64,000 bases of DNA from Ulota crispa (lineage: Eukaryota; Streptophyta; Bryopsida; Orthotrichales; Orthotrichaceae). Location of the stretch: NCBI GenBank assembly GCA_963920765.1, contig OY987243.1, forward strand, positions 17,360,001 through 17,424,000, read 5' to 3'. Both the position numbers and the translations under genes were made by a program. Numbering within the stretch: position 1 is the first letter of the stretch; the number at the start of each line of letters is the position of its first letter. Shown here in pieces: positions 655 through 39,226 of the stretch. Under the pieces are notes generated by a model. It ran no database searches and had not been told where the DNA came from. It worked only from the letters and a program-made list of their open reading frames with translations.

Positions 655-1024
655 TTAACCCTTAAACGCCAAGGAGGACATTTTTAGTCATTTGGCTCAA
701 AAAAAACATTATGTATGACAAAAATAAATTGCTTTTCATCTGATTTTTTTTCTAGAAGTGACCATAAACACAGGCTCATCATGGAAGGCAAAAAACAACC
801 TCATCAAATATACTCATATTTTTAGGTAACCCAAATTGTGAAAAGATTCACAATCACGGTCTTAGGTCCCATATTGCCTTTCTTGCAATCTTCCTCAGGT
901 CAACATGTATTGTTGACTTTTGTAGTAGCTGGGCACTTGCCACACAAATGACAGCTTTGGAGTCACTCTAGAAGTCATTGTAGTTGGGTTGGTCACAGTG
1001 ACCAACCCGACATTTAAGGGTTAA
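655..1024. mobile_element. TTAA element A1 (piggyBac-like MITE)
   Basis: A 370-bp element bounded by TTAA at 655-658 and 1021-1024. The ends are CCCTTAAACGCCAAGG and, on the other strand, CCCTTAAATGTCGGG. Its core is shared with A2 (23403), A3 (23722) and A4 (38869), for example the stretch about surviving TTCATCTGATTTTT. No coding capacity. TTAA duplication plus ends starting CCC is the known signature of piggyBac elements; the family assignment is inference because no transposase is present. Confidence 0.7.
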
Positions 1025-1565
1025 CTTGTAAATGCCCAAGGCTTTTTTGAGCTTCTTGGACTTTCCATGAAACTGACAATCAACCAACCTTTTCATAAAT
1101 TTCATAAAAAGAAATTCAATTGTAACCGTACAAATTCAAATTAAACATGTTAAAGATTACAAGGAAACAAAAACCACAATAAAATCACTTATAGTTTGAA
1201 ATATTATAATGTTTGAACATGAGGGTATTAAAAATGCAAAAGTGACTTGAAGTCTTCCAATCCTCATTTCACATGTCAAATCTAAAAACTTGGTCACCAA
1301 ATAAATATGAGGGTTAACCCCTCACCACCCAAGGGGCCCAAAATTGCCCACCTCTACATATCCATTTGGAAAAGACTAACTTTCTAGAAGATTAATTTTA
1401 GTGGTTATTTTTTAAATTATTCTTGTTGAAGTCTTGTTTTAGTATCAAAAATCTGATTTTGAAAATGAATGATTATGATTTGTATATTCAAGATTTTGTG
1501 CAAGGGTGTCCATTGCAAATTTTCACTTTCTAGTGTTGAGAGCTCTTGGAAATGAGCCTCAAGTA

Positions 1566-2456
1566 CAGTTGGGTACAATAATCTTACAAATTTTTTTGCA
1601 GTGAAATTTCAGCCAACAATTCAACAACTTTAAGAAGCCATATCTTCCTCAAAAGTTGTTCAATTTTGAAACCGCAAATTGCATTGGAATCACACAAAAG
1701 AGTACTACATGATTTGATTTTAAAAAAATCAGAAATTTTACAAATGATAAAAAAAGTTTGGCTACTTCCTATATTGTGTCTACCATCTAGTACTTCCACC
1801 TCTTGCAGAAATCACCGCTTGAATTGATTGGGCATACTTGTAATAAGAGTTCTTAGTTGCTCCATGGATACCTCATCCCATACAACACCATATTAATTAA
1901 ACTGGGAAAAACAATACATTTTCGGACTTCCAAAGGATTAAGGTGATCACCTTAATTTGAGCTCCAACATTTTTTTTGGGTACATATGCCCTCACTTGAG
2001 AGGAGTAGTTTGGGAGGGAAAAAATCTTAGTGGCTCAGACTAAATTTGATACCTTCAAATCTGGTTTAAGGTAACTTTTTGGGTTTAAGGTGGAGTACAA
2101 AATGGGACCCTTGTTTTTCCCAATTTTAACTAATATGGTGTTATACTCTTTGAATGATGTGTAACCTTTGTCGCTTGTTCTTTGGCCGTTGGTGGTGGCG
2201 TAGCTCAATCAAATTCAAGCGGTGATTTTGGCAAGAGGTGGAAGTATACTATATAGGAAGTAGCCCAATTTTTTTTATCATTTATAAAATTTCAGATTTT
2301 TTTTTATCAAATCATGTAGCACCCTTCAGTAGTATTCCAACACAATTTTTGATTTCAAAAACGGACAATTTTTGAGGAAGTTATGACCTTCGGAAGGTCC
2401 TAAAGTTGGATGAAGTTATACTGGAAAAAAATTCATAAGTTTATTGTACCCGACTG
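1566..2456. mobile_element. Mariner-like foldback Y, nested in C1
   Basis: An 891-bp element with TA at 1564-1565 and 2457-2458. The ends are CAGTTGGGTACAATAA and, inverted, CAGTCGGGTACAATAA. The arms stay complementary for roughly 250 bp, for example the shared CTACATGATTTGAT and CTTCCACCTCTTGC. CAGT-starting ends plus a TA duplication are typical of Tc1/mariner. It is non-coding. B1 has TACACTAGAGCTTGG uninterrupted at the matching place. D1 lies in its loop. Confidence 0.7.
1884..2142. mobile_element. MITE D1, nested in Y
   Basis: A 259-bp element with ends AACACCATATTA and TAATATGGTGTT; inner arms add TGGGAAAAACAA versus TTGTTTTTCCCA. A 4-bp duplication ATAC flanks it (1880-1883 and 2143-2146). 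Two more copies lie at 26656-26892 and 33729-33845. The superfamily is not assigned. This is the innermost layer of a four-deep nest (B2, C1, Y, D1). Confidence 0.6.
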
Positions 2457-2996
2457 TACACTAGAACTTGGAGAAACAATCATATTAGAAACTTAATTTA
2501 AAAAGTTGTAGAGTAGATTTTAAGAAGCCGTAAATTGATTAGGGTTACACATGTTGTACTTTACATACTTGTAATTTTTTTTTTATATCCTCAATTTTAA
2601 ATTTGAGATGTGAAAAGAGGATTGAAAGACTTCATATCACTTTCACAGTTTTAGCACCCCCATGATCAAATCTTATAATCTTTCAATCCATAAGTGATAT
2701 TTTTATGTTTTCTTTTCCCATGTGATCTCTAACATATCTAGTTTGAATTTGTATGGTTACAATCTAAATAAATTGATGCAACTTATCAAAATGTTGCCAT
2801 TTTGTTCATCCAAAAGCATATTCTGAGATACCCCAAAAAGTCCATGGGCGGTGAGGGTTAAAGTCATTACATGTCTAACTATAATCAATTTACGATTTTC
2901 AAAATCTACTCTTATGTTTTTTTAAATAGATTTCAAATGTGGATTTTTCTCCAAACTCTAATATATATGAGGCTCATTTTCAAGATCTTTCAACAC

Positions 2997-3196
2997 NNNN
3001 NNNNNNNNNNNNNNNNNNNNNNNNNNNNNNNNNNNNNNNNNNNNNNNNNNNNNNNNNNNNNNNNNNNNNNNNNNNNNNNNNNNNNNNNNNNNNNNNNNNN
3101 NNNNNNNNNNNNNNNNNNNNNNNNNNNNNNNNNNNNNNNNNNNNNNNNNNNNNNNNNNNNNNNNNNNNNNNNNNNNNNNNNNNNNNNNNNNNNNNN
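2997..3196. other. Assembly gap, 200 N
   Basis: A run of exactly 200 N, which suggests a placeholder of unknown true size. It removes the right half of B2. Open frames spanning it are artefacts. Confidence 0.99.
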
Positions 3197-4457: not shown

Positions 4458-4688
4458 TTAAACCCTAAAAAGCACATTGTCCGTACATGGGGACAAATTG
4501 AATCTTGGGCAGCTCACTACTTGGTAGAGTTTTTATTTTATTTCTTTGAAAATTTTAAACAGCATATGCTTAAGGAGTAGTTTGGGCAATTTGGGCATCT
4601 TTGGAGAATCTTATGCTAAAATTTTCATCAACTTTTGAAATTTGACAAGTATGTAACTAAAAAAACATGGTGTACAATTGTCAAAAAG

Positions 4689-4722
<34 letters not shown>

Positions 4723-5323
4723 TACATCACATTTTGAAAGGAGTCAAACTTTGTTAATTATGTTTGGGCAATTTCAAGGGAAAAAAAATCCTCTAACTTC
4801 AAGCCCTATTATCTTTCAATTTATAAATCTTGAAACTTCCTTTCACATATTCCAAATGTTTTTCTCTAGCATTTTCCATTCAGATTTCAAATAAAAGACT
4901 TTCTCATTGCACAAGAAATCATGAGAATGACTAATGTATTGCTAATTCACTAAACCTCCTTGCATTGCAAGATGATATAAGATAAGTTAGATTCTCACAT
5001 ATGCATCTGAAAATTTTCATGAGTGAACCTAACATCATATATTTGTGAATGGTCAAAAAGCTCATTTTTGTGTAGAGCAAGGCTCAAAGTGTGTTGACCT
5101 TGTTTTGCAAGTGAAAAAAAAATTGTTTTTCTCACTTCAAACATTATAATCTTACAAACCACGCAATCAAATGGGCTGAATTTTGTTTGCGCACATTCAT
5201 TTATCTAATTTACACACTTTTGTACAATTTCAGAGAAAAAAAAATTTATTTTAAATTTTGGGCAATGCACTAAAAGTTGGCAATTTCTGAGATTTTTTCT
5301 CAAAAAGGTCCTTTAGGGGTTAA
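4458..5323. mobile_element. TTAA element, diverged family E member (E8)
   Basis: The left end at 4458 reads TTAAACCCTAAAAAGCAC (one extra A) and the right end at 5309-5323 reads TCCTTTAGGGGTTAA. Internal phrases such as ATTGTCCGTACATGGGGACA and GGGCAGCTCAC recall family E, but the copy is much more diverged than E1-E6. A 33-base poly-A run sits inside at about 4688-4718. Non-coding. Confidence 0.5.
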
Positions 5324-6070: not shown

Positions 6071-6082
6071 CAAATTGTATTA

Positions 6083-6933
6083 TGGCCTCCAAGCTAGTTC
6101 GTTCACCCTAATTTACTCTTTAAAATTTTTGGTATTTTATAAAATAAAATTAGCATTTAAAATCTTGTACCATTCTATTTTAATTCTTACTCAATCACAA
6201 TCAAGCATATTATATTTTGAGTTTCAAAAAACCAAAATCTTATTTTTAGTGGATTGCTTTACATAATATTAATGGTTTTACATGATAAATGATTAAAAAA
6301 AATTGGTAATGAATTTTGAGATTTGATTGCATGGATGCATAGGAAACATCCACATACATATCTTTTCTTCTAACAAGCATCTCCAAAAAAAAAAATCCTT
6401 CTATGTAGAGATGAAGCAATTACAACCAAATCTTGTAAATTAGATATTTCTTCATGGTAATCAAATTTTTTTGTTTGACTTATACAATATAGTTGGGTTT
6501 GAATCTTTGAGCATAATGATATGGTTATTTTGCCAAAAATTAGTTAAAATACATAAATTTCTATTTTACAAAATTTGGTCATGATCACTCCAATGTTAAA
6601 ATCTACATAGATAGAATTGTAATTTTTTTGGAGATGCTTTTTAGAAGAAAAGATGTGTATGTGGATGTTTCCTATGCATCCACGCAATCAAATCTCAAAA
6701 ATTTATTACCAATCTTTTTAATCATTTATCATGTAAAACCATTAATATTATGTAAAGCAATTCACCAAAAATAGGATTTTGGTTTTTTGAAACTCAAAAT
6801 ATGATATGTTTGATTGGGATTGAGTAAGAATTAAAATAGAATGGTACAAGATTTTAAAATGCTAATTTTATTTTATAAAATACCAAAAATTTTGAAGCGT
6901 AAAACAGGGTGAATGAAACTAGCTTGGAGGCCA
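6083..6933. mobile_element. Long-arm foldback element M0
   Basis: An 851-bp element whose two halves are inverted copies for about 350 bp. The ends are TGGCCTCCAAGCTAGTTC and, inverted, TGGCCTCCAAGCTAGTTTC, with TA at 6081-6082 and 6934-6935. Complementarity may extend a few bases further out. The central 150 bp are shared with M1 (19555-21339), although the outer arms differ. It is non-coding and could fold into a long hairpin if transcribed. Confidence 0.65.
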
Positions 6934-6935
6934 TA

Positions 6936-7657: not shown

Positions 7658-7659
7658 TA

Positions 7660-8246: not shown

Positions 8247-8561
8247 AGGTATGTACACCCATAAGCGTCAAACTAAAAGTTTTTGAACATGATGAGTATC
8301 AATAAACAACTAGCAAATTATAGGATCCTATTGGGAATAGAAAAATAATGAGTTTGCACTTTCAAATGTATCATTTGGATACTGTGAGAATAAGTTGTGA
8401 ATTTTTAAAAAGTAAACTGCCATTGCACCCATAACCATTATTAAGATTTCATGTTCACATGTTGTACATCCCTATCATTACATCTATTCACTTCCACATA
8501 TTTTTCAAGATTTTAGGGGTGAAGATTATGTGGATAGTGGTGCTTATGGGTATACATACCT
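8247..8561. mobile_element. AGGT-ended element I1
   Basis: A 315-bp element with ends AGGTATGTACACCCATAAGC and, inverted, AGGTATGTATACCCATAAGC, and TA at 8245-8246 and 8562-8563. It is the short, uninterrupted copy of the large composite I2 (19091-22734) and so serves as its empty-site control: GAATTTTTAAAAAG here versus the L1 insertion there, and TTGTACATCCC here versus the M1 insertion there. Confidence 0.75.
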
Positions 8562-8704: not shown

Positions 8705-9650
8705 TTAACCCATAAAGGACCATTGTCCCTTCAGGGTACAAATGGGATTTCGGGCATGTATCTTTGGATAAGCTACTTTGTGTGATTTTTTGAAACTCTT
8801 ATTGAAAGTGTGGAATTCAAAGATCTACGTGGGCATCTAGTTTTTTCTTCATTTGGACATCTGACAAAGAAGCTATGCAAGAGTTTATCCAAGCTAGGGG
8901 AGGAGAGGCAGTTCACGCAACCCAAAAAACTTCTTTAAAATTTACATTTTCTAAAAATAACAATTTGGAATTGGTTCTTTATAGTTTTTTACACAAGGGA
9001 AGCTTTGAATCATTCAATTTTAATCAATGACATGAAATTTATGAAGAGTTTTTGTTTGCAGGCGGTCATGGATTCTCTACTCTAAAATAAACTTCAAAGT
9101 CCTTTGTTTTACTCAATTTCCAATATTTTGGGAAAAACAATTAAACCAAAGGAAGTACATTGCTTATCACAACATCATAACCATTGGGATTTGAATTTTT
9201 CATTTCAATAATTAAATTCTTTTATCAACTTAGTGTTTTAATTCATTCTCTACTTCTTTTTACTTAATATTTTTTCACATGTGTTATATAGTTCCAGTTG
9301 ATTTGAAAATTCTCCCACATATACCTAACTGGATCTCCTACATGGAAAATTAAAAGCACAACTTTGGGTAGAGCAATCTTTTTCATGTACAAGAGGTCAA
9401 AGGCTTCTAAAACTTACTGAAAGCAAGGAAAAAAACCTTTTCCCTTCATTTCAGATGTAAATATCTCCCTCCTCTCCATCTAGAATGAGCTGATTTTTTC
9501 CCCACAAGTACCTCTTCTAGTCTAAGGCAATTTCCTAAGATTGGATTTCCAAAAAATAAAAAAAATAAATTCACCTCATTACTCATACCCTAGAAGTGGC
9601 ATTTTTAAGTGATTTCGGCAGAAAAGAGGGCTTGGTCCTTGAGGGGTTAA
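8705..9650 (+). mobile_element. TTAA element E1
   Basis: A 946-bp family E element between TTAA at 8705-8708 and 9647-9650. The ends are CCCATAAAGGACCATTGTCC and, inverted, CCCCTCAAGGACCAAGCCC. The first 780 bp or so are almost identical to E2 (24225); I counted about five substitutions. The last 150 bp differ far more. No open frame of note, so non-autonomous. Confidence 0.8.
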
Positions 9651-10233: not shown

Positions 10234-10467
10234 TTAACCCTTAAACAATCAAGAGGCCCTTAACGAGCAATACAATATGGGGCATTTTTCTTGTATTTGG
10301 AATGGATCCATACCTCTACTACATTTGAGATCAATAAAGAAGTTGGAGAATAGATCAATACGGTTCTAGTGAGCTATTTGAGATCCCAAATTAAAATTTC
10401 TTATTGGTAGCAAATGACAATCATACATCACCATATATACTATACCCTATGGTTACTCAAGGGTTAA
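10234..10467 (-). mobile_element. TTAA element G2
   Basis: A 234-bp element between TTAA at 10234-10237 and 10464-10467, ends CCCTTAAACAATCAAGAGG and, inverted, CCCTTGAGTAACCATAGGG. The core (AATACAATATGGGG and GGAATGGATCCA) is shared with G1 (25397) and with G3 (27269), which lies in the opposite orientation. Non-coding. Confidence 0.75.
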
Positions 10468-11020: not shown

Positions 11021-11431
11021 CTAACCCTTTAACGATTGTGGTCGATTCAAGGGTGGACAATCCTTTGTAGGCCATTTGGGGGAAAATTTTAAAACTACTG
11101 AATACAGATGTCTACCAAAGATATAACCGTACAGATGGAAGTATTTTGCGGGTTTAGTGTTATGCATCATGAATTATGCTCACTCTTAAGTTGTTATGGC
11201 CATCTATTTGCATTCATTGGTGTATTTTCAGCTGGTACTCTTTTAGTTTTTTCAACCCTCTGGTCACATGCCACCTCAAATTGGCTTGGTTATTGTCCTA
11301 AACTCTTCCCTTCCCAACTCCCTAGATACGTCCCCTTTGATTAATCACCATATTCATTGCCATTCTCATCCTACACACAAAAAAAGGGCCGGATTGACCA
11401 CAAAATGGTTGATTGGTCGTTAAAGGGTTAA
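11021..11431. mobile_element. TTAA element O1
   Basis: A 411-bp element. The left end CCCTTTAACGATTGTGG follows CTAA (11021-11024, one mismatch to TTAA); the right end is the inverse of CCCTTTAACGACCAATC followed by TTAA (11428-11431). Only AG... two bases separate it from P1 (11434). It spans a short open frame of 78 codons that resembles nothing known. 10468-11020 before it is gene-free. Confidence 0.65.
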
Positions 11432-11433: not shown

Positions 11434-12346
11434 TTAACCCTTTAAGGACCACACAACCATATTTTGGTTGCTGGGAGTGGTTATTGGCCTGTAGGTTGAA
11501 ATCGCTCAATAATTTGGAATTTGATCTTGAAGTATGCATGTGATCACAAGAATTTTGCATCCATCCAAAAAAATAACAATGCAATTGGGTATATGAGTTG
11601 ATAAATAATGGTGTTTATATGACATGGCTTCAAAATATGTATCCAATTTATGTCAAAGATGGTTCAAAGCAACAGCACAATACAACAAGTATGCAAGAAG
11701 AATGTCAAGTTTCAATTTCACAATTCTAAAAAATTTCAAATTGCTTAAGAAATACGCTTGTATTGTTTTCATATATGATAGTAGTATAATTTTAGTATTT
11801 GAAGATCTACTGGAATGTTGTTGTCATTTTGGCTTTAAAATTTATCATCTTACATTTAAGGCCAATTCTTGATTTTTTTCACCAATTGGATTTTCCAAAA
11901 TAATTATCAAATTTCTTGTAGAACCGTTTTAGGGTAGCAAAGAAAGTAGGTTTTGACCCTTTTTGTCCACTTAGCTACACCTTGTGATTGCTATTTTTGT
12001 CTATTTTGTGTGAAACTAGTCTTATTGGAAAGGTGGGAAACCTTGCTTTTTAGAAATGTAAGACTCTTCTCAATCAAAGCTTGCATGAAAGGTTAACATT
12101 CAAAACTAAACAAGAATGAATCACAAGAGATCTTCCGCATATGGCTCACTCAATCATTATAATATTTCACCTTCAACGATAGATCTAGTTGAAATTTTGG
12201 TGCTTTACAATAAACAAGGTGTACTTTCCATTTGTACAGTTGGATTACTGAAAATGGGTCCATATTTGAGTCAATTCCAAATCTAAGCTTACAGCCCCTA
12301 TTTTCAGTAGATTCTGTGAAAATGAGTGCGGTCGTTAAAGGGTTAA
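11434..12346 (+). mobile_element. TTAA element P1
   Basis: A 913-bp element between TTAA at 11434-11437 and 12343-12346, ends CCCTTTAAGGACCACACAAC and, inverted, CCCTTTAACGACCGCAC. It aligns along its length with P2 (15456-16536), for example ACATTTAAGGCCAA and TTTTTGTCCACTTAGCTACA. P2 carries the hairpin V1 that P1 lacks. Non-coding. Confidence 0.75.
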
Positions 12347-12803: not shown

Positions 12804-12819
12804 TGGTTCACTGTTTTTA

Positions 12820-13212: not shown

Positions 13213-13214
13213 TA

Positions 13215-15455: not shown

Positions 15456-16536
15456 CTAATCCTTTAAGGACCACACAAGCATATTTTGGTTGCAGGGAGT
15501 GGCCATAAGGTGACCCTCCCCATACCCAACCCTTTCCCAATTCTGACCCCTATGTACCCAGGGTGTTCATTTACACCCTGGGTACATAGGGGTCAAAATT
15601 GGGAAAGAGTCGGGTATGGGGAGGGTTACCTTATTTTAATTGCAAAGAGTGGCCATATTTTGGTTGCAAAGAGTGTTTTTTGGCTCATAGAGCAAAATAG
15701 CTCTACAATTTGGAAATTGGTCTTGAAGAACGCATGTGGTCACAAGAATTTTGCATCTAACCAAAAAAATAACAATGGAATCATGTGAGTTGACAAATAA
15801 TGGGGTTTATATAGCATGGCCTCAAAATATGTATGGATATTTGGTCAAAAATGGATCAAAGCTACAACAAAATACATCAAATATCTAAGAAGAATGTCAC
15901 ATTTCAATTGTATGGTCCTATAAAAATTCTAATTTGCTTAAGAAATACGCTCATATTGTTTCTCTATATGATAGCAATATAATTGTAGTATTTGAAGATC
16001 TATTGAAAAGATGTTGTTATTTCATCTATAAAACTTGTCAACCTACATTTAAGGCCAATTTTTGATTTTTTTCATTGAAAATTTTTCCATGGCATTTATC
16101 AAATTTCTTGTAGAATTGTTTTAGGGTAACAAATAAAGTGGGATTTTTATCCTTTTTGTCCACTTAGCTACACCTTGTGATTGCTAATTTCATTCATCTT
16201 GTGTGGAACTAATTTTATTGGGAAGGCGAGAAACCCTACTTTTTAGAAATATAAGACATTTCTTAAGCATATCTTGTATGAAGAGTTAACATTCAAAATA
16301 ACACAAGCATGAAAAACTAGAGATTTTCACCTATGGCTTACTCAATCATTTTAATATTTCACCTCCAATAATAGAACTGGTTGAAATTTTGATACTTTAC
16401 AATAAACAAGTTATTCCTCTCATTTATACGGTTGGATTATTCAAATTGGGTCCATATTTGATTCAACTGCTCATCTAAATTTACTGCTCTGGTTTTAGTG
16501 AATTTTGTGAAAATGTATGTGATCCTCAAACGGTTA
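15456..16536 (+). mobile_element. TTAA element P2 with nested V1
   Basis: A second copy of P1, 1,081 bp including V1. The left boundary is CTAA (15456-15459) followed by TCCTTTAAGGACCACACAAG; the right boundary is the inverse of CCGTTTGAGGATC then TTAA (16533-16536). Older than P1 by the look of its ends. Non-coding. Confidence 0.7.
15508..15631. mobile_element. Near-perfect hairpin MITE V1
   Basis: A 124-bp palindrome with TA at 15506-15507 and 15632-15633. Left arm AGGTGACCCTCCCCATACCC, right arm its near-exact inverse; the arms meet around TGTTCATTTACA. The inner part GACCCCTATGTAC is shared with V2 (56917-57058), although the outer arms differ. The RNA would form a duplex of about 55 bp, so it is a possible small-RNA source. 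Confidence 0.8.
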
Positions 16537-19088
16537 AGTAGTTTGAGAAAAAGAAAACAGCTGATGCTTGTAGCCGCTCTAAACATGACGGATTTTAGTT
16601 GGATTTTCCTTCAATAAGTAGATACTTGCTGGTTACAATAAAATTAGAGGAAACTACCAAAACACCCTTTGATTTTCTTACGAAATGACCGAAATGGTTT
16701 TAGATTTTGGAAAATCTCAAAAATAACATTGCATATCAAATTTACCATCCAAATCATTTTCTAGCAATTATGCTATCGAACAATTTGCTTCCAAATGATG
16801 CAATCTTTCAATCTTCATGTAGCAGTACACAATTTATTTCAACTAGTGCTAAACTTTGACTAGTGCAAGATTCTTTCACATTGATCTGGGTAAGTTTTGT
16901 CTAACTTATGTGAAAACGTGGTGTATGTCCAGCCCTTGTTTTTCAAGTGGAGTTTTAGTCACAATTTTTTTATGTCGCTCATGTAATTACGTGGTAGCAC
17001 AATCTTTGTGACGTAGTATCTTGGGGAGGTCACTCAATGTATTTTTTGGATACCCGTGCAATTAAATAAAAGTTTCACCCCTATTTACTTTATTTTTTTG
17101 TTTCAAAATTTTGGATATTTTAGATTCAAATGAATTATATGAGATATCCAAACATGTAATTGAAGATTGCACTAAAATGGTTGAATTTTCACTTCAAATA
17201 TTTATCAAAATTGCGTTTGAATTGCATCCAATTTTGGTACACAAAAACTATAACCAAGCCTTAATTTATTGTCAATTTGAAAATATTTTTTACCATATAA
17301 TATAAGGGGTCAAACAAAATTCTAGCTATGCAATGTATTTATTTTCTTCCGAAATTTGTAAGTAATTATTTAGATTTTTTTTTTTAATAAAGCACAATGT
17401 AAATTTTCAATATAGAAGAACACACTATAAAATTTTCAAACTATTCAATTGATTTTTTACAATATAAGGTAGGGATCAAAGATTTTGATTGCGTGTGTGC
17501 CAAAAAAATAGGGAGTGCACCCCCCAAGTGTAGTTTGCTTCATACACTCTCTTACTAATATAAATGCTTCCAAAACATCCTTAGAATTTTGAACACTTGA
17601 GTCACAATTTTTGAAATAGTGTTTATATATTGTGATTCACAATGTTTTGAATTAACCTAGATTACCAGGAATTAAATTATGAATGCTCTTTGCAAATTCA
17701 CTTATATCTTGAATTAGTGCAATTTAGAGTTGTTAATGCAAGGTGTAGTAATCTAAGTAACTTGTGTAGTACCTCAAATAAATTATCGACATGTTGTCCT
17801 CATGTTCCAAAATGCACAACTTGTTTTTCTAAATTACAATCCTATGTTCTAATGCACTTGGATGCTATTTGGAGAAACTTTACGTGTTTGTATAGCTTTA
17901 AGTGAACAATTTGTCAAGAAAATGTGCGTCAAGTGGTAAGTAGTTATATTGTGGGCGTTGGTGTCACCAATGGTGTTTTAGATTATTATTATTAATTTTT
18001 CTGAAGTTAGGAGAATTTGGAAATTCTATGAAAAGTGAAGGGTGTATTGGTAATGATTCATAAAAGTGTTATGATAGATATCTTGATCTTTACTCAAAAT
18101 CTGTGGCCAAAGGGTGGGGCTGTATAACAAGCAAATGGTATTAAATCACACTTTAAATGTAATTTGAACTCCTAATCAAATTTTCTAATTTTATTTGGTC
18201 TTGTGAACACTCTTCATTGTCAATAGCTTGGAGAATCTTAGACCTTCACAAGGTCAAAGGATGTGTGGGTTTAAAGAATTTGAATGGGTAAAGATGTTGA
18301 AGTGGAAGCACCCACAGCCACCAATGTCCTATACCCAACTTGTAGGGGGTACTGCTTTCAAACTCAACAAAGAGAGGTGATTTGGAATGCAATCTAGGTC
18401 CTTTTCAAGGTTGGGATTACTCAAGTCATCCTACATGTCCCAAAGTGCAGTAGGAAGTAATGACAGAAAGTAATACGACTATTATTAGAATTATATGAGT
18501 TTAGACTAGAGGTTAGCAATGGGTTCAAAGCACTTTTTGACTCCTAAAATTTAAAATAATTTCAATTTTACAAATAATATTATGAAAATTTGCAATCCCA
18601 ATACTTCTTATCTTCCTACATGAAAAACACATTTGTTGCCTCAAACTCTTTGTAGTTTGTTACATAATTGCTTATCGGGTACGGGTGCATCCACCTTAGT
18701 TTGGAGGAAACAAGTTGGTACTAATATGGGTTTGTTGGAAAAACATTGGAATTGGAAAATTTTAGAGTGGGGGGGGGGATGAAACCGACGGCAATGGACG
18801 GAAACCGATGCACTCTTGGAAGAGGAGGAGAAAAACTAGAGGAGCGTTTAAATCTCACCTTACCCTGATCAATATCACGTAGCAAATGGCTGAAATTTTG
18901 AACAATTTCCAAAATTGTAACAGACCCCAGAGTAACGACTCTGTAACACTGAATCTACAAAACTGACAGAAGACTGTTGATTGAAAACAATTAAGTTTTT
19001 GGCAGTTACGGTGAACCACTGAACCCTACATGAGCCCAATTATAGTGGGTTTACGGCCGGTGGTTCGTCTTCGTAGTAAAAAAGGAGA
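16537..19088. other. Gene-free stretch with one possible TIR element
   Basis: No supported gene in 2.5 kb. A probable element runs from about 17022 to 17530: its left end CTTGGGGAGGTCACTC and right end (inverted CTTGGGGGGTGCACTC) continue into TTTTTTGG. The target duplication is unclear. A G-run and GC-richer patch at 18767-18860 may be a remnant of something else. Remaining sequence is AT-rich and unrecognised. Confidence 0.4.
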
Positions 19089-19496: not shown

Positions 19497-19554
19497 AGAG
19501 CAAACTGTCATTGTATCCATAACCAACACAAAGGTTTCATGTTCACATGTTGTA

Positions 19555-21424: not shown

Positions 21425-21750
21425 AGGTAGAAGGCTCAAAAATCAACCATCTAAGGGCTTAAACTGAATTTTGGGGAGGTAGAACTTCTTGAAATATTTT
21501 TCAGTAAAATTTCCTTGAAATACAAGAAGAATTGACATCTAACCCAAATTGTTTCATGTTTTTTGGAGTTTTGTAGAATTAGTTATGAAATTTTGAAGCT
21601 GAAGTGGCATAGGGCTCTATAACCGCTCACCTCCTCAAATGTACACCACCTATACATTTTAGAAATCTATGAAAAAATACATGTACAGAGAGAGAACATT
21701 TTGGAGGGCAAATGATTTTAGAGCCTGGACGGTTTTTGGGCCTTCTACCT
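21425..21750 (+). mobile_element. AGGT-ended element K3, nested in I2
   Basis: TA at 21423-21424 and 21751-21752; ends AGGTAGAAGGCTCAAAAATC and, inverted, AGGTAGAAGGCCCAAAAACC. It has one copy of the 19-bp unit that K1 has six times. Its right TA is part of the TTAA used by B3. Confidence 0.75.
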
Positions 21751-22714
21751 TAACCCCTAAATGCCCAAGAGTGTTTTTCTTGTTTTGAGAAGGTAGTTAT
21801 GAAGTTTTGGAATTGTCCTTGTAAGATCATTATAAAACATCAAAATAAAATTGTGACCATTGAATCTTGAACTTCAAGGTTTCTAAATGGCACTATCCAA
21901 AAAGAATCCAAAATAGTTGCACAGATTTCAAGATATTTGTGATTGAATGGTGATGAGTATGGAATTTTTTACTTTTTTGGAACTGCCCAAAACTTCTAAT
22001 GCAAATTGGCAACTTTTGGACACAAAATTGGGAAACAACCACTTAGGATGTTTTAGTATTTATTGTTGTTACATCAAAACCAATGGCCCCTCTTCCAAAT
22101 CCATGACCACAATTTCACAAATGAGCCTGCAATGCAATTGCCAAAACGCAACTGTCCAATACAAAGAAAATTTTCAGCTTCAATTATTGCCCAAAAATCA
22201 TTATGAATGAAAGAATTTTCAGTGGTGAATAGATTCTAATTAGTATTACAAAGACATTCCAAGTGAAATTAGTCCAAAAGCACTTTTAGATTTTGTTAAA
22301 TGTCAAAATTTCATAAAAAAGGCCCTTATTGCCCAAGGGAGTGCCCAAGAGAAATCTTCACCTTTTGCTCAACTTGATGCCCATCTTTTCAATGTGTCAA
22401 CTTCTCATAAGCTCTGTGACACTATTCACGACACTATTCACGACACTATTCATGACACTATTCATGACACTATCCATGACACTATTCACAACACTATTCA
22501 TGTCACAAAATGTATGCTTGTAGTTAACCTTCCACCAAAAACAATTGAAATAAGATATGAAGGAAGTTGAATTTGAAAGGTGGAACTAACTTGAACGCGC
22601 AACTTTTCCAAAAAAAAAAACTTGAAAATGACAAAATCTGTACCTTCAACAGGACTTCAAAGTTTCTTGAAGTTTGGACACCCAATTTGGGTGCCTTGGG
22701 CATTTAGGGGTTAA
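21750..22714. mobile_element. TTAA element B3, nested in I2
   Basis: A 965-bp element, TTAA at 21750-21753 and 22711-22714, with 16-bp ends CCCCTAAATGCCCAAG on both sides; next to the right end is GGACACCCAATTTGGGTG, shared with B1. Most of the core differs from B1. It contains a 12-bp tandem array (22418-22501). It was inserted in the TTAA formed at the right border of K3. Non-coding. Confidence 0.75.
22418..22501 (+). repeat. Tandem repeat, 12-bp unit, seven copies
   Basis: The unit GACACTATTCAY is repeated seven times with few changes, inside B3. The threonine-leucine-rich short open frame across it is a by-product. Confidence 0.9.
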
Positions 22715-23402: not shown

Positions 23403-23725
23403 TTAACCCTGGAACGCAGATGCGAACATTTTTGTCCGATGGATGCCAGAAAAAAACTGTGTATGATGAAAAAGGCCGTTTTTCATCTTAGTTTTTTAAA
23501 AGGAACAAGCTTAGTGAATGCACTCTTATTTACATGTAATACAAATGTGAGAAGATTCACAAACACGGTATAAGGTCCCATGTTGCCTTTCTTACAATTT
23601 TTATGAGGGTAGCATGTAATGTTGACTTATGCAATTTTTGGAAATAATGTTAAAATGTGTGCGCACTTGTTGTAGCACCATTGTAGTCAACTGTCACGAT
23701 GACAAACCTCACATTAAAGGGTTAA
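23403..23725. mobile_element. TTAA element A2
   Basis: A 323-bp A-family copy between TTAA at 23403-23406 and 23722-23725; ends CCCTGGAACGCAGATGCG and, inverted, CCCTTTAATGTGAGG. Its last TTAA is also the first TTAA of A3. Confidence 0.7.
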
Positions 23726-24101
23726 CACTTAAATGTCCAAGAGGACGTTTATTGTGTTCTTGTCATCAAAAAAACAATTTGTAGGCAAAAGAAAAGCCAT
23801 TTTCCATTTGTTTTTTTAGAAATGATCATACATTCATGATACATTATGGAAGGCAAAAAAAAAACCTCACCAAATACATTCATATTTTTAGGTAACTCAA
23901 ATTGTGAGAAAATCCAAAGACACAATATTATGTGCCACACTGCCCTTCTTTTGATTTTCACAAGGTTAGCATGCACTACTTACTTTTGCAACTATTAGAA
24001 ACCATTTCATAATGAGTGAGCACTTGCCACACCATTGTAAAGCACTATAGAGCTATTGTAGAGAGATGGTCATGGTGACTAGCAGGACATTCAAGGGTTA
24101 A
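23722..24101. mobile_element. TTAA element A3, chained to A2
   Basis: A 380-bp A-family copy sharing TTAA 23722-23725 with A2 and ending at TTAA 24098-24101. The left end CACTTAAATGTCCAAGAGG and the right (inverted CCCTTGAATGTCC) match A1. Non-coding. 24102-24224 is a short spacer. Confidence 0.7.
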
Positions 24102-24224: not shown

Positions 24225-25172
24225 TTGACCCCTAAAGGACCATTGTCCCTTCAGGGTACAAATGGGATTTCGGGCATGTATCTTTGGATAAGCTACTTTG
24301 TGTGATTTTTTGAAACTCTTATTGAAAGTGTGGAATTCAAAGATCTACGTGGGCATCTAGTTTTTTCTTCATTTGGACATCTGACAAAGAAGCTATGCAA
24401 GAGTTTATCAAAGCTAGGGGAGGAGAGGCAGTTCATGCAACCCAAAAAACTTCTTTAAAATTTACATTTTCTAAAAATAACAATTTGGAATTGGTTCTTT
24501 ACAGTTTTTTACACAAGGGAAGCTTTGAATCATTCAATTTTAATCAATGACATGAAATTTATGAAGAGTTTTTGTTTGCAGGCGGTCATGGATTCTCTAC
24601 TCTAAAATAAACTTCAAAGTCCTTTGTTTTACTCAATTTCCAATATTTTGGGAAAAACAATTAAACCAAAGGAAGTACATTGCTTATCACAACATCATAA
24701 CCATTGGGATTTGAATTTTTCATTTCAATAATTAAATTCTTTTATCAACTTAGTGTTTTAATTCATTCTCTACTTCTTTTTACTTAATATTTTTTCACAT
24801 GTGTTATATAGTTCCAGTTGATTTGAAAATTCTCCCACATATACCTAACTGGATCTCCTACATGGAAAATTAAAAGCACAACATTGGGTAGAGCAATCTT
24901 TTTCATGTACAAGAGGTCAAAGGCTTCTAAAACTTACTGAAAGCAAGGAAAAAAACCTTTTCCCTTCATTTCAGATGTAAATATCTCCCTCCTCTCCATC
25001 TAGAATGAGCTGATTTTTTTCCCACATGTACATCTTCTAGTCTAAGGCAAGATCCTATGGTTGGATTTCCAAAAAAATAAAACAAAAAAGTCTACCTTAT
25101 TACTCATACCCTAGAAGTGGCAGTTTTCAGTGATTTTGGCAAAAAGAAAGAGCTTTGTCCTTTCAAGGTTAG
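24225..25172 (+). mobile_element. TTAA element E2
   Basis: A 948-bp copy, near-identical to E1 over the first 780 bp. The left boundary is TTGA (24225-24228) and CCCCTAAAGGACCATTGTCC follows; the right boundary is TTAG (25169-25172). Both deviate by one base from TTAA. It is chained to F1. Confidence 0.8.
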
Positions 25173-25400
25173 CCCCTGAACGGCACCAAAGCCCTTTACA
25201 GTCGTATGTAGGGCCATATATATAGACATATTTGAGCTATTCTGAGGGCTTTCCAAATTTTTTATGCACCCCCCCATCATACAACCCTTCAATATGTATG
25301 GTTGTAACACTTAATTTCTAGCTAATTCAAACTCCTAAATAATGGTTGCAACCATATTTGGTACCATATCTCCAGAGCCCATGTGACGTTTAGGGGTTAA
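25169..25400. mobile_element. TTAA element F1, chained
   Basis: A 232-bp element between TTAG 25169-25172 (shared with E2) and TTAA 25397-25400 (shared with G1). Ends CCCCTGAACGGCACC and, inverted, CCCCTAAACGTCACATGGG. Its core matches no other copy in the window. Confidence 0.65.
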
Positions 25401-25653
25401 CCCCTAAATGTTTGAGCGTGCCGCTCCGACCAATACAATATGGGGAATTTTCGTTGTATTTGGAATGGATCCACACATTTACTACATGTGAGACCAACAA
25501 TGAACTTGGAGAATAGATCAATGGGGTTCTAGTGAGCTACTTGAGATCCAAAATTAAGATTTCTTGAGATCCAAAATTAAAATTTCTTATTGGTAGCAAA
25601 TGACAATTATACGTCAGCATATATATTATGCCCTATGGGCATTTAAGGGTTAA
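25397..25653 (-). mobile_element. TTAA element G1, chained
   Basis: A 257-bp G-family copy, TTAA at 25397-25400 and 25650-25653. It has an internal 23-bp direct duplication around TTTCTTGAGATCCAAAATTAA (about 25540-25590) absent from G2 and G3. Confidence 0.75.
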
Positions 25654-25746: not shown

Positions 25747-26347
25747 AGGTAGCAGCATCCATAAGCATTGTGTCCCCATGGTCGTCACCTGACAGTGGCA
25801 GGGGGTAATCAATAAAAAAGCAAATGGTTGTGGGTGATTAGCATGAGGTTTTGAGTACCCATCTCACTATTTAACCCCTGAGTGCCCTACAGCCCCAAAT
25901 ATTGCCTCTCACAATTGAAAAAGTTTTATGTTTGACTATTATAATCTTTTCATCAATATAGTCAAATCATGTGTCCTATTTTCCTATACTTTTGTACCTA
26001 TATCCCCTATCAATCAATGTGGTTGGATTTTATGGATCTCATTTGTCATGACAAATTAGTTGGATTGAGTGTGACTAGGTCTGCATTTTGGTGAATATGG
26101 CCTGGGCGTGCAGGTGTTGAGAACCAACAAGCCTTGTTTTTAGCATCTCTTACACATGGTTCTTACAATTTCAGTGATTTTGGACTTTGAAAAATCTTTG
26201 TAAACAAATATTTGTAATTGAAACCTTAAAATTGATGTCAATATTTTTGGTTTCCACTTCCTAACTTACAGTATTTTTTTCAAAAGTTAGTCAATTGTTT
26301 TACCTACTCCAAAACCGTAATTTCCACGCTTATGGGTGCGCCTACCT
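25747..26347 (+). mobile_element. AGGT-ended element J3
   Basis: TA at 25745-25746 and 26348-26349; ends AGGTAGCAGCATCCATAAGC and, inverted, AGGTAGGCGCACCCATAAGC. Interrupted by N2; without it the length is about 350 bp, like J2 and J4. Confidence 0.75.
25871..26120. mobile_element. TTAA element N2, nested in J3
   Basis: A 250-bp element between TTAA 25871-25874 and TTGA 26117-26120, ends CCCCTGAGTGCCC and, inverted, CACCTGCACGCCCAGG. J4 reads CTCACTATTTAAGAACCAAC at the same point without insertion. It is related to N1 (37953) by ends and by the ATGAATATGGC(C/A)TGGGCG-like right border. Confidence 0.75.
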
Positions 26348-27268: not shown

Positions 27269-27502
27269 TTAACCCTTAAATGACCATAGGGCATAGTATA
27301 TACGCTGACGTATAATTGTCATTTGCTACCAATAAGAAATTTTAATTTGGGATTTCAAGTAGCTCACTAGAATCCCATTGATCTATTCTCCAAATTATTT
27401 GTTGGTCTCAAATGTAGCAGAAGTGTGGATCCATTCCAAATACAAGAAAGATACCCCGTATAGTACCAGTTGCAAAGGGCCTTTCAGTCCTTTAAGGGTT
27501 GA
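27269..27502 (+). mobile_element. TTAA element G3, reversed relative to G2
   Basis: A 234-bp G-family copy between TTAA 27269-27272 and TTGA 27499-27502, with left end CCCTTAAATGACCATAGGGC. It aligns with the complement of G1 and G2. 27503-28380 beyond it is gene-free, with only weak open frames. Confidence 0.75.
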
Positions 27503-28754: not shown

Positions 28755-28756
28755 TA

Positions 28757-29950: not shown

Positions 29951-30602
29951 TTAACCCCTAAATGCCCAAGGCACCCAATTTGGGTGTTTGCAAAACTTTG
30001 AAGACAAATAAATCCTTATCAAATCACTGTTTTTGGTATTTTCTTTGACTACAAGTTTATTTTGAAGTTTATTTTCAACTCCAAAAATCTGATTTAAGAA
30101 ATGAATATTGATGATTTTTCTACTCAAGATTTTGTACAAGGGTGTCCACTGCAATCTTGAGTTTTCTAGTGTTTGAAGATCTTGAAAATGAGCCTCAAAT
30201 ACACTAGAGCTTGGAGAAAAATCTGCATTAGCAATCCATTTAAAAAAATTACATGAGTAGATTTTGGATGCTGTAAATTGACTAAAGTTAAGCATGTAAC
30301 AAACTTAAACCTCATATTTTTTTGACGACCAAATTTTTAGATTTGACATGTGAAATGATGATTAGAAGGCTTCAAGTCACTTTTGCAGTTTTAACACCCT
30401 CATATTCAAACATTATAATCTTTCAAACTATAAGTGATATTTTTGTGTTTTCTTTTTCCATGTAATCTCTAACATGTCAAGTTCAGATTTGTACGATTGC
30501 AGTTTAAAAAAACTTGATGAGATTTATGAAAAGGTTGATTGATTTTTCACTTTCTTGATAATGCCAAGAAATTTAGAAAAGCCTTGGGCATTTAGGGGTT
30601 AA
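29951..30602 (-). mobile_element. TTAA element B1, complete
   Basis: A 652-bp element with TTAA at 29951-29954 and 30599-30602 and matching 16-bp ends CCCCTAAATGCCCAAG on both sides, the cleanest ends of any TTAA element here. It is the uninterrupted reference for B2. Non-coding. Confidence 0.85.
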
Positions 30603-31715: not shown

Positions 31716-32657
31716 TTGATCCCTAAAGGACCATTGTCCCTTTAGGGGATAAATGGGATTTTGAGCATGTACTTTTGAATAAGTTACTTTGTGTGATTTT
31801 TGAAACTTTTATTGAAAGTGAGGAATTCAAAGATCTATGTGGGCATCTAGTTTTTTTTTCATTTTGACATTTGACATAGAAGCTATGCAAGAATTTATCA
31901 AAGCTAGGGGAGGAGGGGCAGTTTGGCAGCCCACAAAACTTTTTTGAAAATTATTATTTTTTTAAATGAAAATTTGGAATCAGTTCTTTAGATTTTTTTA
32001 TACTTGAGAAGCTTTGAATCATTCAATTTCGATTAATGACATGAAAGTTATGAGGATTTTTGTTTGCGGGCAATTATGGATTCTCCACTCTAAAATAAAC
32101 TTTGAAGTCCTTTGTTTTACTCAATTTCCAATATTTTGGGAAAAACAATTAAACCAAAGGAAGTAGACTTTTATCACAACATTATAACCATTGGGATTTG
32201 CATTTTTTGTTTCAATAATAAAATTCTTAACAATTTAGTGTGTTGAGACTCATTCTCTACTTCTTTTTACTTACTATTTTTTTCCCATGTGTTGTATAGT
32301 TCCAATTGATTTGAAAATTCTCCCACATATACCTAACTGGATCTCCTACATGGAAAATTAAAAGCACAACATTGGGTAGAGCAATTTTTGTAATGTAAGA
32401 GTGGTTAAAGGCTTCTTAAATTTACGAAAAGCAGGGAAGGAAAACTTTTCCCTTCACTTTAGATGTAAATATCTCCTTCCTCTCCATCTAGAATGAGTTG
32501 ATTTTTTCCCAGAAGTACCTCTTCTAGTCTAAGGCAAGATCCTAAGGTTGGATTTCCAAAAAATAAAATAAAAAAGTCTACCTTATTACTCATACCCTAG
32601 AAGTGGTAGTTTTCAAGGATTTTGGCAAAAAAGAGGGCTTGGTCCTTTAGGGGTTAA
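31716..32657 (+). mobile_element. TTAA element E4
   Basis: A 942-bp E copy; left boundary TTGA (31716-31719) then TCCCTAAAGGACCATTGTCC, right boundary CCTTTAGGGG then TTAA (32654-32657). Alignable with E1 over its whole length. Non-coding. Confidence 0.8.
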
Positions 32658-32727: not shown

Positions 32728-33687
32728 TTAACCCCTAAAGGACCAACTGTCCCCTCAAGGGACAAATGGATTTCGGGCATGTACCTATAGCTAATCTACT
32801 TTTTGTGATTTTTTGAAACTTTTATTAAAGGTGGGCAATTCAAAGATCTATGTGGGCATCTAAATTTTTCTTCATTTTGACATTTACTGAAGAAATTATG
32901 CATTAATTTTTGAAAAAGGGCAAGAGCAGGTAGCCCAAAAAAAAATTCCAAATTGTATTTTTTAAAAATAAAAATCTGAAATTGGTTCTTTAGATTTTTA
33001 TATACGTGGACATTTTTGGATCATTCAATTTTGATAGATGAGATGAAAGTTATGAGAAGTTTTAGTTTGCAGATAGGTATGGCACTCCCAAACCTCCATT
33101 CCTTTTCCCCTTTGTAAAACTTGTTGCTTTACTTTTTTGAGCTCTTTGTGTATTTGTTTTTTGACTTTTTTTTTTTTGCAAGTTGTAGTAGACTAAGATT
33201 CCTTGGTTTTCACCATTTGGATCAAAGTAATTTGGGTTTTTGAATTTTACATAAATCCTCCAATTTTGCCTAGTTTATATGCAAATTTCATGACCTTATG
33301 GCATTGTAGGATTTTACAAAGTATGATCCACATCTCCATTTCATTTGGAAATTCTCCCACATTTACCTAACTTGGTCTTCTACATGGGAAAAATAAACCT
33401 CAACTTTGCGTAGAGCAATTTTTTTGATATAGGAGCCGTCAAAGGCTTCTGAAATTTTTGGGCAGTAGGGAAAAAAACTCTTGTTTTCACTTCAAATGTA
33501 AATATCTCACTCCTCTACAACTAGAATGAGCTGATTTTTTTCCCACAAGTACCTCCCATAGTTTAGGGCGAGATTTTACGGTTAAATTTTCAAAAAAATC
33601 TTTTTTCCCACCTTTCTACTCATTCTTCCAAAAGTGGAAATTTTTAGTGATTTCAAAGAAAAAAGGACTTGATCCTTTAGGAGTTGA
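32728..33687 (+). mobile_element. TTAA element E5
   Basis: A 960-bp E copy of a different subfamily from E1/E2 (its middle, for example TTGTTGCTTTACTTTTTTGA, matches E7 at 60632). TTAA at 32728-32731; the right border is TTGA (33684-33687). Only 70 bp from E4. Confidence 0.8.
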
Positions 33688-35366: not shown

Positions 35367-35421
35367 ATTTAGCTGGCTAAATGAGTTTACTAATTACTTA
35401 TGTAGGCTTGTATATTTTGTA

Positions 35422-36463: not shown

Positions 36464-37397
36464 TTAATCCCTAAAGGACTGTTGTCCCTTGGGGGACAGG
36501 TGGGAGTTCGGGCATGTACCTTTGGATAAGCTACTTTGTGTGATTTTTTGAAACTTTTATTGAAGGTGGGGAGTTCAAAGATCTAAGTGGGCATCTAGTT
36601 TTTTCCTCATTTTGACAATTATTGAAGAAGTTACAGAAGAATTTCTGAGAATTTGGGGAGGATTGCCTGCTTGGGCAGCCCAAAAACTTCTTTAATTTAA
36701 AAAAAAAATCAAAAAAAAAAAATGAAATTGGTTCTTTAGATTTTTTAATAGGTGAGAAGCTTTGAATCATTTAATTTCAATCAATGACATGAAAGTTATG
36801 AGGACTTTTTGTTTGCGGGCAATTATGGATTCTCTACTCTAAAATAAACTTTGAAGTCCTTTATTTTACACAATTTTTAATATTTTGGAAAAATAATTAA
36901 ACCAAAGGAAGTAGATTGTTTATCACAACATTATCACCGTTGGGATTTGCATTTTTCATTTCCATAATTAAATTCTTAACAATTTAGTGTGTTGACTCAT
37001 TCTCTACTTCTTTTTACTTAATATTTTTTCCCATGTGTTGTATAGTTCCAATTGATTTGAAATTCTCCCACACATACCTAACTTGATCTCCTACATAGGA
37101 AAAATAAAGTGCAAAGTTGTGTAGAGCAACTTTTTTGTTATAAGAGTGGTTAAAGGCTTCTGAAATTTTGGAGCAGCATGAAAAAAACTTTTCTTTTCAC
37201 TTTAGATGAAAATATCTCACCCATGTCCATCTAGAATGACCTAATTATTTTTCCACAAGTACCTAATTCAGTCTAGGGCAAGATTTTACGAGTGGATTTC
37301 CTAAATTAAGAAAAAAAATTACCTTCTTACTAACCCCCAAAAGTAACAGTTTTGAGTGATTTTCACTGAAAAAATGACTCGATCCTTTAGGAGTTAA
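36464..37397 (+). mobile_element. TTAA element E6, nested in U
   Basis: A 934-bp E copy, TTAA at 36464-36467 and 37394-37397; ends TCCCTAAAGGACTGTTGTCC and, inverted, CTCCTAAAGGATCGAGTC. Closest by eye to E4. Upstream at 36183-36216 is a short (AAAAAT)n microsatellite. Confidence 0.8.
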
Positions 37398-37742
37398 GCA
37401 AAATGTGGGTTGAAATTTGAGACAATTGGCCCTTAGCCAAATTGGCCTGGCCCCCATATGTAAAGCGGCCCTTAACTCACAGAACAAGAGAACCAGCTGA
37501 CAGTCAGTGCTACCAGAGTATGTAGTATTATAGTATACTGAAATGGTAATATTGATACCAGTTGTTATTATACTGTAATCATGTAACTGCACTCCACATC
37601 GGAAAGGAACTTGTAGGCTAACTTATTGACCACGTAGCAGAGAAGTTGAAAGGGCCGATCGAAAGAAGAGAACAAATTGTAAGGCAGATGTTAAGATGAA
37701 TAGAAATGTCATGATGGTACAGGTGATAAGTTACCTACACTG

Positions 37743-38218
37743 AGGTAAGATGTCCTTGAAGCGACCCTTTACCAGCTGATTTGTACTTTTGGGAACTGGA
37801 CTCCTTAAAAAGATTTCAGTAAGTTTTTCTGGACAGATAAATGGAATAAGTATATAACTCAAGTATTTTTTGCAGTTTTGAAAACTTTGTAGTATTAGTT
37901 ATGAGCTTCTGAAGCTGGAATGGTAGAAGCTCTGTCTGTGTTAGTGGAGGCTTTAACCCCTTCAGCGCCTCAGCGACCACTATGTGGTTGCTCAGTTTTG
38001 AAAAATGTCCATGTTTGACTCTTATTTTCTTCTTAATGATAAAGTCGAAGGACTTGTACTTTTTCATGTACCTCTAGGCATGTGTCTACTACCACTCAAA
38101 AAAATTCAAGCTATTTGATTCTACTAAGGTAATACTTTTATTGGACTAAGTACACAAGGGTATGGATTTGAATGAGTATGGCATGGGCGCTCAGGGGTTA
38201 AGAGCTCGCCTCCTACCT
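37743..38218 (+). mobile_element. AGGT-ended element K4, decayed
   Basis: A diverged K copy: AGGTAAGATG at the left, GCCTCCTACCT at the right, and K landmarks between (TTTCAGTAAGTTTTTCT, GTATTAGTTATGA). It is flanked by GA rather than TA on both sides. Interrupted by N1. Confidence 0.5.
37953..38201. mobile_element. TTAA element N1, nested in K4
   Basis: A 249-bp element, TTAA at 37953-37956 and 38198-38201; ends CCCCTTCAGCGCCTCAGCG and, inverted, CCCCTGAGCGCCCATGCC. Related to N2 (25871). Non-coding. 38219-38868 after it is gene-free; GGAGGGGTTAA at 38587 may be the end of a further, undelimited copy. Confidence 0.75.
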
Positions 38219-38868
38219 GAGTGCAATTACAACAATGGAAATCTGTCCGTATTGCATTATTTGCATGATAGTATGACACACGATAGTCTCTGTCAATAAC
38301 TGTTTCAAGTTTAAATGTAAAAGGAGATGGGAGCCCTCGGAAGCCTCTGGTCACACAAGTTGGATCTTTCCAGAACTCATGTTACTGACATGTTGATTTT
38401 TACTTTTCAACCATCATTTGTGACATCATTTTTGACAGATGTAGTAAATGTGCACGCTTCTGGCATTCAAAATGCTTGTTCTTTTTTTTGTTAAGGGCTG
38501 CCACTGAAAAGTTTTTACAAATCACTCCAAAAATATTCCCGTTTAGGAATCATGGCCATTTGAAATTTATGGTCATTTCTGGTTAGGAGGGGTTAATACA
38601 AAGTACTCATACAAGTCAGGAATACCTAGTTGCGATGTTCATTTCCTTGAGACACAACATACGATGACACTAAGATTTTTAAATCGAAATAATACTATGT
38701 TCTTAGATGTTTCACAATCAGGTGAACAAATCTAACATAGATTATACCAGGTATGGTAGGTTGATCCAAAAGTGAGCATAAGTGAGCATGTATTCAAAAG
38801 CGTGCTCTGATAAGTCTAAATGTCGAATGCCTAAGTGATGAATGAATGTTTCATTCCTTACAAAATGT

Positions 38869-39226
38869 TTAACCCCTAAACGTCAAGGAGGACAAAAAAC
38901 TTCCTCGGGTTCTGAAAAAGATTATGTGATTTAAAAAAAAGTTATTTTTCATCTGATTTTTTTCAGAAGTGACCATAAACACATGGTCCGTCATTGAAGG
39001 CAAAAAATTACCTCATGAGATGTATTCATATTTTTGTTGTAACCCAAATTGTGATAAGATTCAAAAACATGGTCTAAGGTCCCAAGCTGCCCTTCTTGCA
39101 ACTTACATGAGGGCACTATGCACCGTTCACTTTTACAACTTTATAAAACAAAAATTTAATGGGTAGGCACTTGCCACACCATTGTAGAGGGCAGGCACGT
39201 CCACCCATCTGCCGCGTAAGGGTTAA
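38869..39226. mobile_element. TTAA element A4
   Basis: A 358-bp A copy, TTAA at 38869-38872 and 39223-39226; left end CCCCTAAACGTCAAGGAGG. It is the last TTAA element before the gene island. Confidence 0.75.

Follow-up and report, generated by a model that had tools for sequence, protein, structure and literature searches.

What kind of transposition has filled one part of a plant chromosome with short elements that share their tips and little else? The question is raised by a 64,000-nucleotide stretch of the Ulota crispa genome (assembly GCA_963920765.1, contig OY987243.1, positions 17,360,001 to 17,424,000 of the forward strand; hereafter the window), in which elements bounded by TTAA and by CCC...GGG ends enclose interiors of many unrelated families. 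A preliminary description had taken them for a piggyBac-type system in which one transposase mobilises all of them. We consider it probable that they are non-autonomous piggyBac-type DNA transposons, some like miniature inverted-repeat transposable elements (MITEs) and others longer, which were moved in trans by several transposases encoded elsewhere.

Ends, target site and number of the elements

To delimit the elements, their ends were matched to the boundaries of repeats that emerge when the window is compared with itself; the coordinates include both TTAA tetramers (for the copy at 60638-61587 they run from tip to tip). This gave 25 elements of 232-1548 bp, which fall into 11 core families by blastn (labels as in Table 1). 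Twenty-four of them lie within 655-39226 and cover 15,034 bp, so that the elements make up about 38% of 39 kb. Outside the count of 25 stand an unpaired TTAA end at 28177 and one additional F3 copy, which starts at 1021, has the element at 1314-2861 inserted in it and disappears into a run of N. The preliminary description had reported at least 25 elements in about ten core families with some 15-16 kb covered, and these figures, like its size range, are borne out; its span of 655-39226 holds all but one of the elements and misses the diverged copy near 61 kb. Neighbouring elements are joined by a single TTAA, or a decayed form of it, at 1021-1024, 23722-23725, 25169-25172 and 25397-25400, and three elements that share end tetramers follow one another directly at 24225-25653.

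The end signature is in large excess over expectation. The exact motif TTAACCC[CT]T[AT]AA has 20 matches on the two strands of 1-40 kb (9 left ends, 11 right ends) and 0 in 40-64 kb, against 0.12 expected per 40 kb when this DNA is resampled with a first-order Markov model. Matches with one mismatch are also enriched (11 observed, 2.06 expected by the same resampling), and those with two are at chance level (13 observed, 13.83 expected). With a threshold of 8, a weight matrix that covers bp 1-13 of the ends, beside TTAA, finds 34 sites in 1-40 kb, where TTAA occurs 314 times in total, and 0 in 40-64 kb (0.20 expected for 1-40 kb); since the matrix was trained on these same ends, counting exact motifs is the cleaner of the two tests.

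To compare families, each end was represented by its least decayed copy, a choice that could favour the palindrome result given below, and this yielded 21 family ends; the right end of S3 is absent from these, as it matches the left end of F3. They share a tip of about 13 bp, CCCYTWAAnGnCC, with strong conservation at bp 1-3, 5, 7, 8, 10 and 12, C or T at bp 4, mostly A or T at bp 6 and mostly C at bp 13. C stands at bp 2-3 in all 21 ends and at bp 1 in 20, the other starting with ACC. Further in, from bp 14-15, the families agree at close to the background rate (0.29), apart from slight increases to 0.35-0.42 at bp 21, 23 and 25.

TTAA is a palindrome beside inverted ends, and could for this reason have belonged to the element itself. 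Three filled sites can be compared with unfilled relatives. The F1a element at 20205-21126 lies in a foldback repeat, two relatives of which have a single TTAA at the same point (6718-6721, and in the inverse arm near 6293). The F9 element at 19249-19496, whose left TTAA has decayed to TCAA, fills a site that corresponds to a single TTAA at 8405-8408, and the F3 copy at 1314-2861 fills one that corresponds to a single TTAA at 30305-30308 within another F3 copy. As each of the three sites has an unfilled counterpart with one TTAA in an older repeat, the tetramer is a true target site duplication, made on insertion and not part of the element; unfilled sites of this kind are indistinguishable from seamlessly repaired ones. 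These three comparisons agree with the TTAA duplication proposed earlier, and the CCC...GGG ends proposed with it are likewise found, with CCC at the start of 40 of the 50 element ends (the remaining 10 are decayed variants) and of 20 of the 21 family ends.

A palindrome near bp 25 of one end

Past the tip, what the families have in common is a shape and not a sequence, namely a short palindrome with its centre near bp 25, a line of support for a piggyBac-type system that the preliminary description did not contain. A perfect stem of at least 5 bp with its centre at bp 24-26 is present in 7 of the 21 family ends (F2, F3, F4, F5, F9, S1 and S5), and in 1000 dinucleotide shuffles the mean is 0.69 such ends, with none of the shuffles reaching 7. 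If the best centre is re-chosen for each shuffle, 1 in 1000 reaches 7; without S5, a relative of F9, the count is 6 of 20 ends, a value attained at one centre or another by 2 of the same 1000 shuffles. In control stretches that run outward from other TTAA sites, a stem of at least 5 bp occurs in 19 of 554. The centre window was bp 24-26 in these strict tests and 23.5-26.5 in the lenient and all-element tests that follow, and F1 was represented by the copy at 24225 in the former (no 5-bp stem) and by that at 31716 in the lenient table (4-bp stem).

The palindrome occupies one end of an element and never both. With a 5-bp stem, one palindromic end is found in 12 of the 25 elements, two in 0 and none in 13; with a 4-bp stem the corresponding numbers are 20, 0 and 5. 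Among all 50 ends, decayed ones included, 12 have the 5-bp and 20 the 4-bp stem (11 and 17 in the narrower range of centres). At the 4-bp cut the palindromic end is the same within a family in 19 of 20 elements, single-copy families being counted as consistent. Taken by family representative, the palindrome is confined to a single end in 10 of the 11 families [a probability of 0.018 by chance, with 10 of 22 ends palindromic, the right end of S3 being included here]. When paired positions are averaged over the ends, 1 of 2000 shuffles reaches the value observed at bp 25 before correction. The sequence of the palindrome differs between most families; it is the same or similar in F3 and S3, and less clearly so both in F5 and S2 and in F1a and F1b.

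Superfamily, mobilisation and core exchange

The closest likeness is to the piggyBac element of Trichoplusia ni (T. ni). In the published complex the core of the transposase touches the first 16 bp and a dimer of C-terminal domains sits on a palindrome at bp 17-33; this CRD palindrome is described as bound at one end only, with a narrow minor groove near bp 25 (PMC7351741). In our scan the published left end of T. ni piggyBac gives one stem, at bp 17-33 with centre 25.0. The elements of the window share with it the TTAA duplication, CCC tips on short terminal inverted repeats (TIRs), a palindrome of the bp 17-33 type centred on 25 and the unlikeness of the two ends, and they differ from it in the tip (CCCYTWAAnGnCC in place of CCCTAGAAAGATA) and in the sequences of the palindromes. 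In descriptions of animal piggyBacs the first bases are CCC, the commonest tip is CCCTT or CCCT, with CCCTT the best-conserved motif, the target site duplication is TTAA, and the TIRs are mostly shorter than 20 bp, or reach 26 bp (PMC10813416, PMC12732532). For piggyBat of Myotis lucifugus, the left end is described as bending around bp 25 and also near bp 69, and palindromes as confined to the left end, with a right end lacking such sites (PMC13405395). The TTAA target, the one-ended palindrome and a feature at about bp 25 are thus common to piggyBat and the elements studied here, whereas the piggyBat tip starts with CAC and scores -3.1 and -8.5 on our matrix. The human piggyBac-like MITEs MER75, MER85 and Looper, which have subterminal inverted repeats (in MER75B at one end only), are also non-autonomous and use TTAA; they are found in an animal host, and the likeness is one of description and not of sequence.

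A piggyBac-type mechanism would work as follows. A transposase dimer would recognise the common 13-bp tip, and its C-terminal domains would pair on the palindrome near bp 25 of one end, producing a left/right asymmetry like that of piggyBac; the element would then be cut out and inserted elsewhere, with duplication of the TTAA at the new site. All that an element would need in cis is the end itself, tip and palindrome, or about the first 33 bp, and unrelated cores could be exchanged because no more than this is required. As the palindrome varies and the tip is constant, one would expect a set of related transposases that differ in the specificity of their C-terminal domains, and not a single enzyme. 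Families with a common palindrome (F3 and S3, less clearly F5 and S2) would share a transposase.

Several observations weigh against this reading. Of the 153 open reading frames (ORFs) of at least 55 amino acids starting before 39.3 kb, 149 were scanned against Pfam (E 0.01) and gave no transposase, with two weak matches to unrelated families (E 0.0012 and 0.009). The scan of 68 of the 97 listed ORFs of at least 70 amino acids from 39 kb on gave no transposase either. The preliminary description had likewise found no transposase in the window, and the lack of DDE_Tnp_1_7 from the scanned ORFs is what non-autonomous copies would show. The palindromes were first spotted by eye and then tested, and at the 4-bp cut the control rate is 78 of 554 outward stretches. 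The averaged score of paired positions peaks at 25.0 (z 3.09), below the corrected 95% line of 3.31, and has another peak of almost the same height at 70.5-71. Neither end of S4 has a palindrome near bp 25, one F5 copy (15631) has it in the end opposite to that of the other, and in the ends opposite to the palindromic ones a search for another copy of the family palindrome gave nothing significant (lowest of 10 p-values 0.075). F3 and S3, F5 and S2, and F9 and S5 share ends or cores wholly or in part, so that the families are not fully independent. With regard to the known systems, the T. ni piggyBac tip scores 5.4 on our matrix, under the cut of 8; the right end of T. ni piggyBac has a second palindrome further in, and none was found here; and piggyBat, with its imperfect left-end palindrome, gives no stem at that end and a 4-bp stem at the right, so that the feature is not superfamily-wide. 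The peak at bp 70-71 was itself tried as a candidate feature, the attraction being the bend near bp 69 of the piggyBat left end, and was rejected as it fails correction.

The cores bear on how the families arose. The listed cross-family blastn matches (a single one for each pair, E of 1e-3 or below) consist of shared ends or of pieces no longer than 60 bp, with two exceptions, F1a with F1b, which have the same outer parts of about 350 bp, and S5 with F9 (75 bp at 71%). This agrees with the earlier claim of unrelated cores behind one tip. Between F1a and F1b the common parts on each side are 75-80% identical, depending on the pair, and the centres (231 and 262 bp) match in two pieces only, of 14 and 17 bp (best E 0.024). 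In their first 33 bp the right end of S3 and the left end of F3 have 32 positions in common, after which the agreement drops to 2 of 11, with the break at the end of the palindrome; for the right end of S2 and the left end of F5 the agreement is 26 of 33, then 3 of 11, rising again to 7 of 11 further in, and the boundary is less clear. Since F3 and S3 share the end only, and F1a and F1b differ in the centre, interiors have been exchanged behind the ends.

The families might instead be internal-deletion derivatives of several autonomous piggyBac parents, with cores that are parental remnants and not captured passengers, and to this we would give a little less than an even chance. It is the ordinary origin of MITEs, different palindromes would fit different parents, and with copies that are 72-97% identical within families the elements are old enough for the parents to have been lost; judging from these identities most of the activity appears old, with one fairly recent pair at 8705 and 24225 (97.2%). 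On the other hand, no scanned core ORF matches a transposase family, and the F1a/F1b centres and F3/S3 ends require an exchange of interiors and not deletion alone. For the families other than these, an origin by internal deletion is compatible with mobilisation in trans by several transposases.

A single piggyBac-type transposase acting through the 13-bp tip, as first proposed, would account for a tip that is nearly invariant over the 21 family ends and for families that lie side by side. The palindromes would then be marks of family history or hairpin signals without specificity, which would suit a feature conserved in position and not in sequence. The T. ni palindrome, however, is described as the binding site of the C-terminal domain (PMC7351741), and the C-terminal domains of piggyBac and piggyBat are reported to read unrelated palindromes (PMC7351741, PMC13405395). 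That most families have a palindrome of their own is difficult to reconcile with one sequence-reading domain and suggests several specificities, and we regard a single enzyme for all the elements as rather unlikely. The earlier assignment to a piggyBac-type system is thus retained as far as TTAA, the CCC ends, the unrelated cores and the lack of a transposase relic in the scanned ORFs are concerned, and is not supported in its assumption of one transposase for all.

Other superfamilies also duplicate TTAA, and Sola3 is one of them. Kolobok is another, and is known from chlorophytes (Micromonas) and rhodophytes, with termini given as 5'-RR/YY-3' (PMC9587614). An RR start is found in none of the 21 family ends, and the palindrome at bp 25 matches T. 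ni piggyBac. We regard membership of Kolobok or Sola3 as very improbable. Judged by their sequence the ends fit piggyBac and not Kolobok, the Sola3 termini being outside this comparison. Finally, chance or convergent TTAACCC ends in AT-rich DNA, for which the low GC content of the region might speak (29-39% in every 2-kb step of 1-34 kb), can be ruled out by the excess of 20 exact sites over 0.12, by ends that fall on repeat boundaries and by the three unfilled sites.

Setting of the elements and significance for plants

Table 1. Positions in the window of the TTAA elements, of unfilled sites and of a second class of inverted repeats
Feature	Position	Strand	Length (bp)	Remarks
F2 element	655..1024	+	370	palindrome in right end
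Older F3 copy, first part	1021..1317	-		split by 1314-2861; resumes at 2858-2996 up to N run
F3 copy	1314..2861	+	1548	inserted at TTAA of another F3 copy; unfilled relative 30305-30308; carries non-TTAA insert at about 1564-2459
S1 element	4458..5323	.	866	single copy in window
Unfilled TTAA in foldback repeat	6718..6721	.		relative filled by F1a 20205-21126
Unfilled TTAA site	8405..8408	.		relative filled by F9 19249-19496
F1a element	8705..9650	+	946	
F4 element	10234..10467	+	234	
S2 element	11021..11431	.	411	right end like F5 left end
F5 element	11434..12346	+	913	left-end palindrome CAACCATATTTTGGTTG at bp 17-33
F5 element	15631..16537	+		left end decayed; bp-25 palindrome in right end, opposite to other F5 copy
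F9 element	19249..19496	.	248	fills site left unfilled at 8405-8408
F1a element	20205..21126	-	922	within foldback repeat; unfilled relative 6718-6721
S3 element	21750..22714	.	965	right end as F3 left end at 32/33 bp, then stops
F2 element	23403..23725	+	323	right TTAA common with next element
F2 element	23722..24101	+	380	
F1a element	24225..25172	+	948	97.2% identity to 8705-9650; flanking TTAA decayed
S4 element	25169..25400	.	232	end tetramers common with both neighbours; neither end with bp-25 palindrome
F4 element	25397..25653	+	257	right-end palindrome GCATAATATATATGC
F9 element	25871..26120	.	250	right end TTGA
F4 element	27269..27502	-	234	
F3 element	29951..30602	+	652	left-end palindrome CACCCAATTTGGGTG; contains unfilled TTAA 30305-30308
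F1a element	31716..32657	+	942	
F1b element	32728..33687	+	960	F1a-like outer parts, different central ~260 bp; left-end palindrome TGTCCCCTCAAGGGACA
F1a element	36464..37397	+	934	
S5 element	37953..38201	.	249	distantly related to F9
F2 element	38869..39226	+	358	
F1b element	60638..61587	-		diverged; flanks without TTAA; beyond span noted earlier
TAAGGTAG...CTACCTTA class	12503-12807, 14376-14646, 21421-21704, 12815-13217, 26122-26355, 28378-28759, 15505-15634, 56920-57060			

The ORFs from 39 kb on include matches to a CRS1_YhbY (CRM) domain (5.4e-11), BORCS6 (3.4e-22) and a piece of a pseudouridine synthase (1.2e-4). Multi-domain CRM proteins are typical of plants, in keeping with a green plant as the likely host. 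A search with the tip pattern TTAACCCYTWAANGNCCAAG returned 0 viral contigs and 8 prokaryote contigs, and the prokaryote matches were taken as chance.

Families without TTAA ends were excluded from the class described above. Among them is a second class of inverted repeats with ends like TAAGGTAG...CTACCTTA, some of which are pure hairpins. The insert at 1564-2459 within an F3 copy is an element with inverted ends AGTYGGGTACAATAA, and an unfilled relative at 30200-30203 suggests a duplication of 3-4 bp (TAC or RTAC). The foldback repeat at 6074-6942 is 84% self-inverse over 888 columns, and its relative (19552-20208 and 21123-21342) is split by an F1a element. Two copies of about 240-260 bp (1883-2143 and 26653-26895, 74% identical) have a TIR of about 29 bp, and an inverted-repeat element of about 127 bp is present at 7654-7780 and 56134-56259 (90.6%), in both the element-rich and the gene-rich parts. 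A G-rich minisatellite of GGGGATGG-like units at 34852-35376 contains a long proline-rich minus-strand ORF that is probably spurious.

As an annotation label, piggyBac in plants is not new. It is listed in all groups, land plants included, in a compilation of 257 species (PMC4438587) and among the MITE superfamilies of angiosperms in a review (PMC10004981); the introduction of a 2025 paper calls it occasional in plants (PMC12732532), and the report on a fern assembly gives piggyBac as 0.00% (PMC6890710). Our literature searches returned no plant report of piggyBac-type MITEs at this density, which is not proof of absence in print, and none of so many core families behind one tip or of palindromes fixed in position; a match in a paper on the moss Niphotrichum proved to be the word 'piggybacking'.

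If the elements are of piggyBac type, a share of about 38% of 39 kb would mean that this class can dominate the DNA beside plant genes. The density would then point to a plant-adapted transposase, which could be a native tool. One tip combined with varied palindromes at a fixed position also makes a natural data set for the question of where in the end the specificity of piggyBac resides. A more speculative reading, which we think on the whole unlikely, is that of a long-lived radiation of several piggyBac lineages in a green plant, in which the common 13-bp tip serves as cut site, interchangeable palindromes specific to each family act as an address code for different transposases, and the DNA past bp 33 is freely replaced. 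If this were true, the ends would be modular parts that recombine between families.

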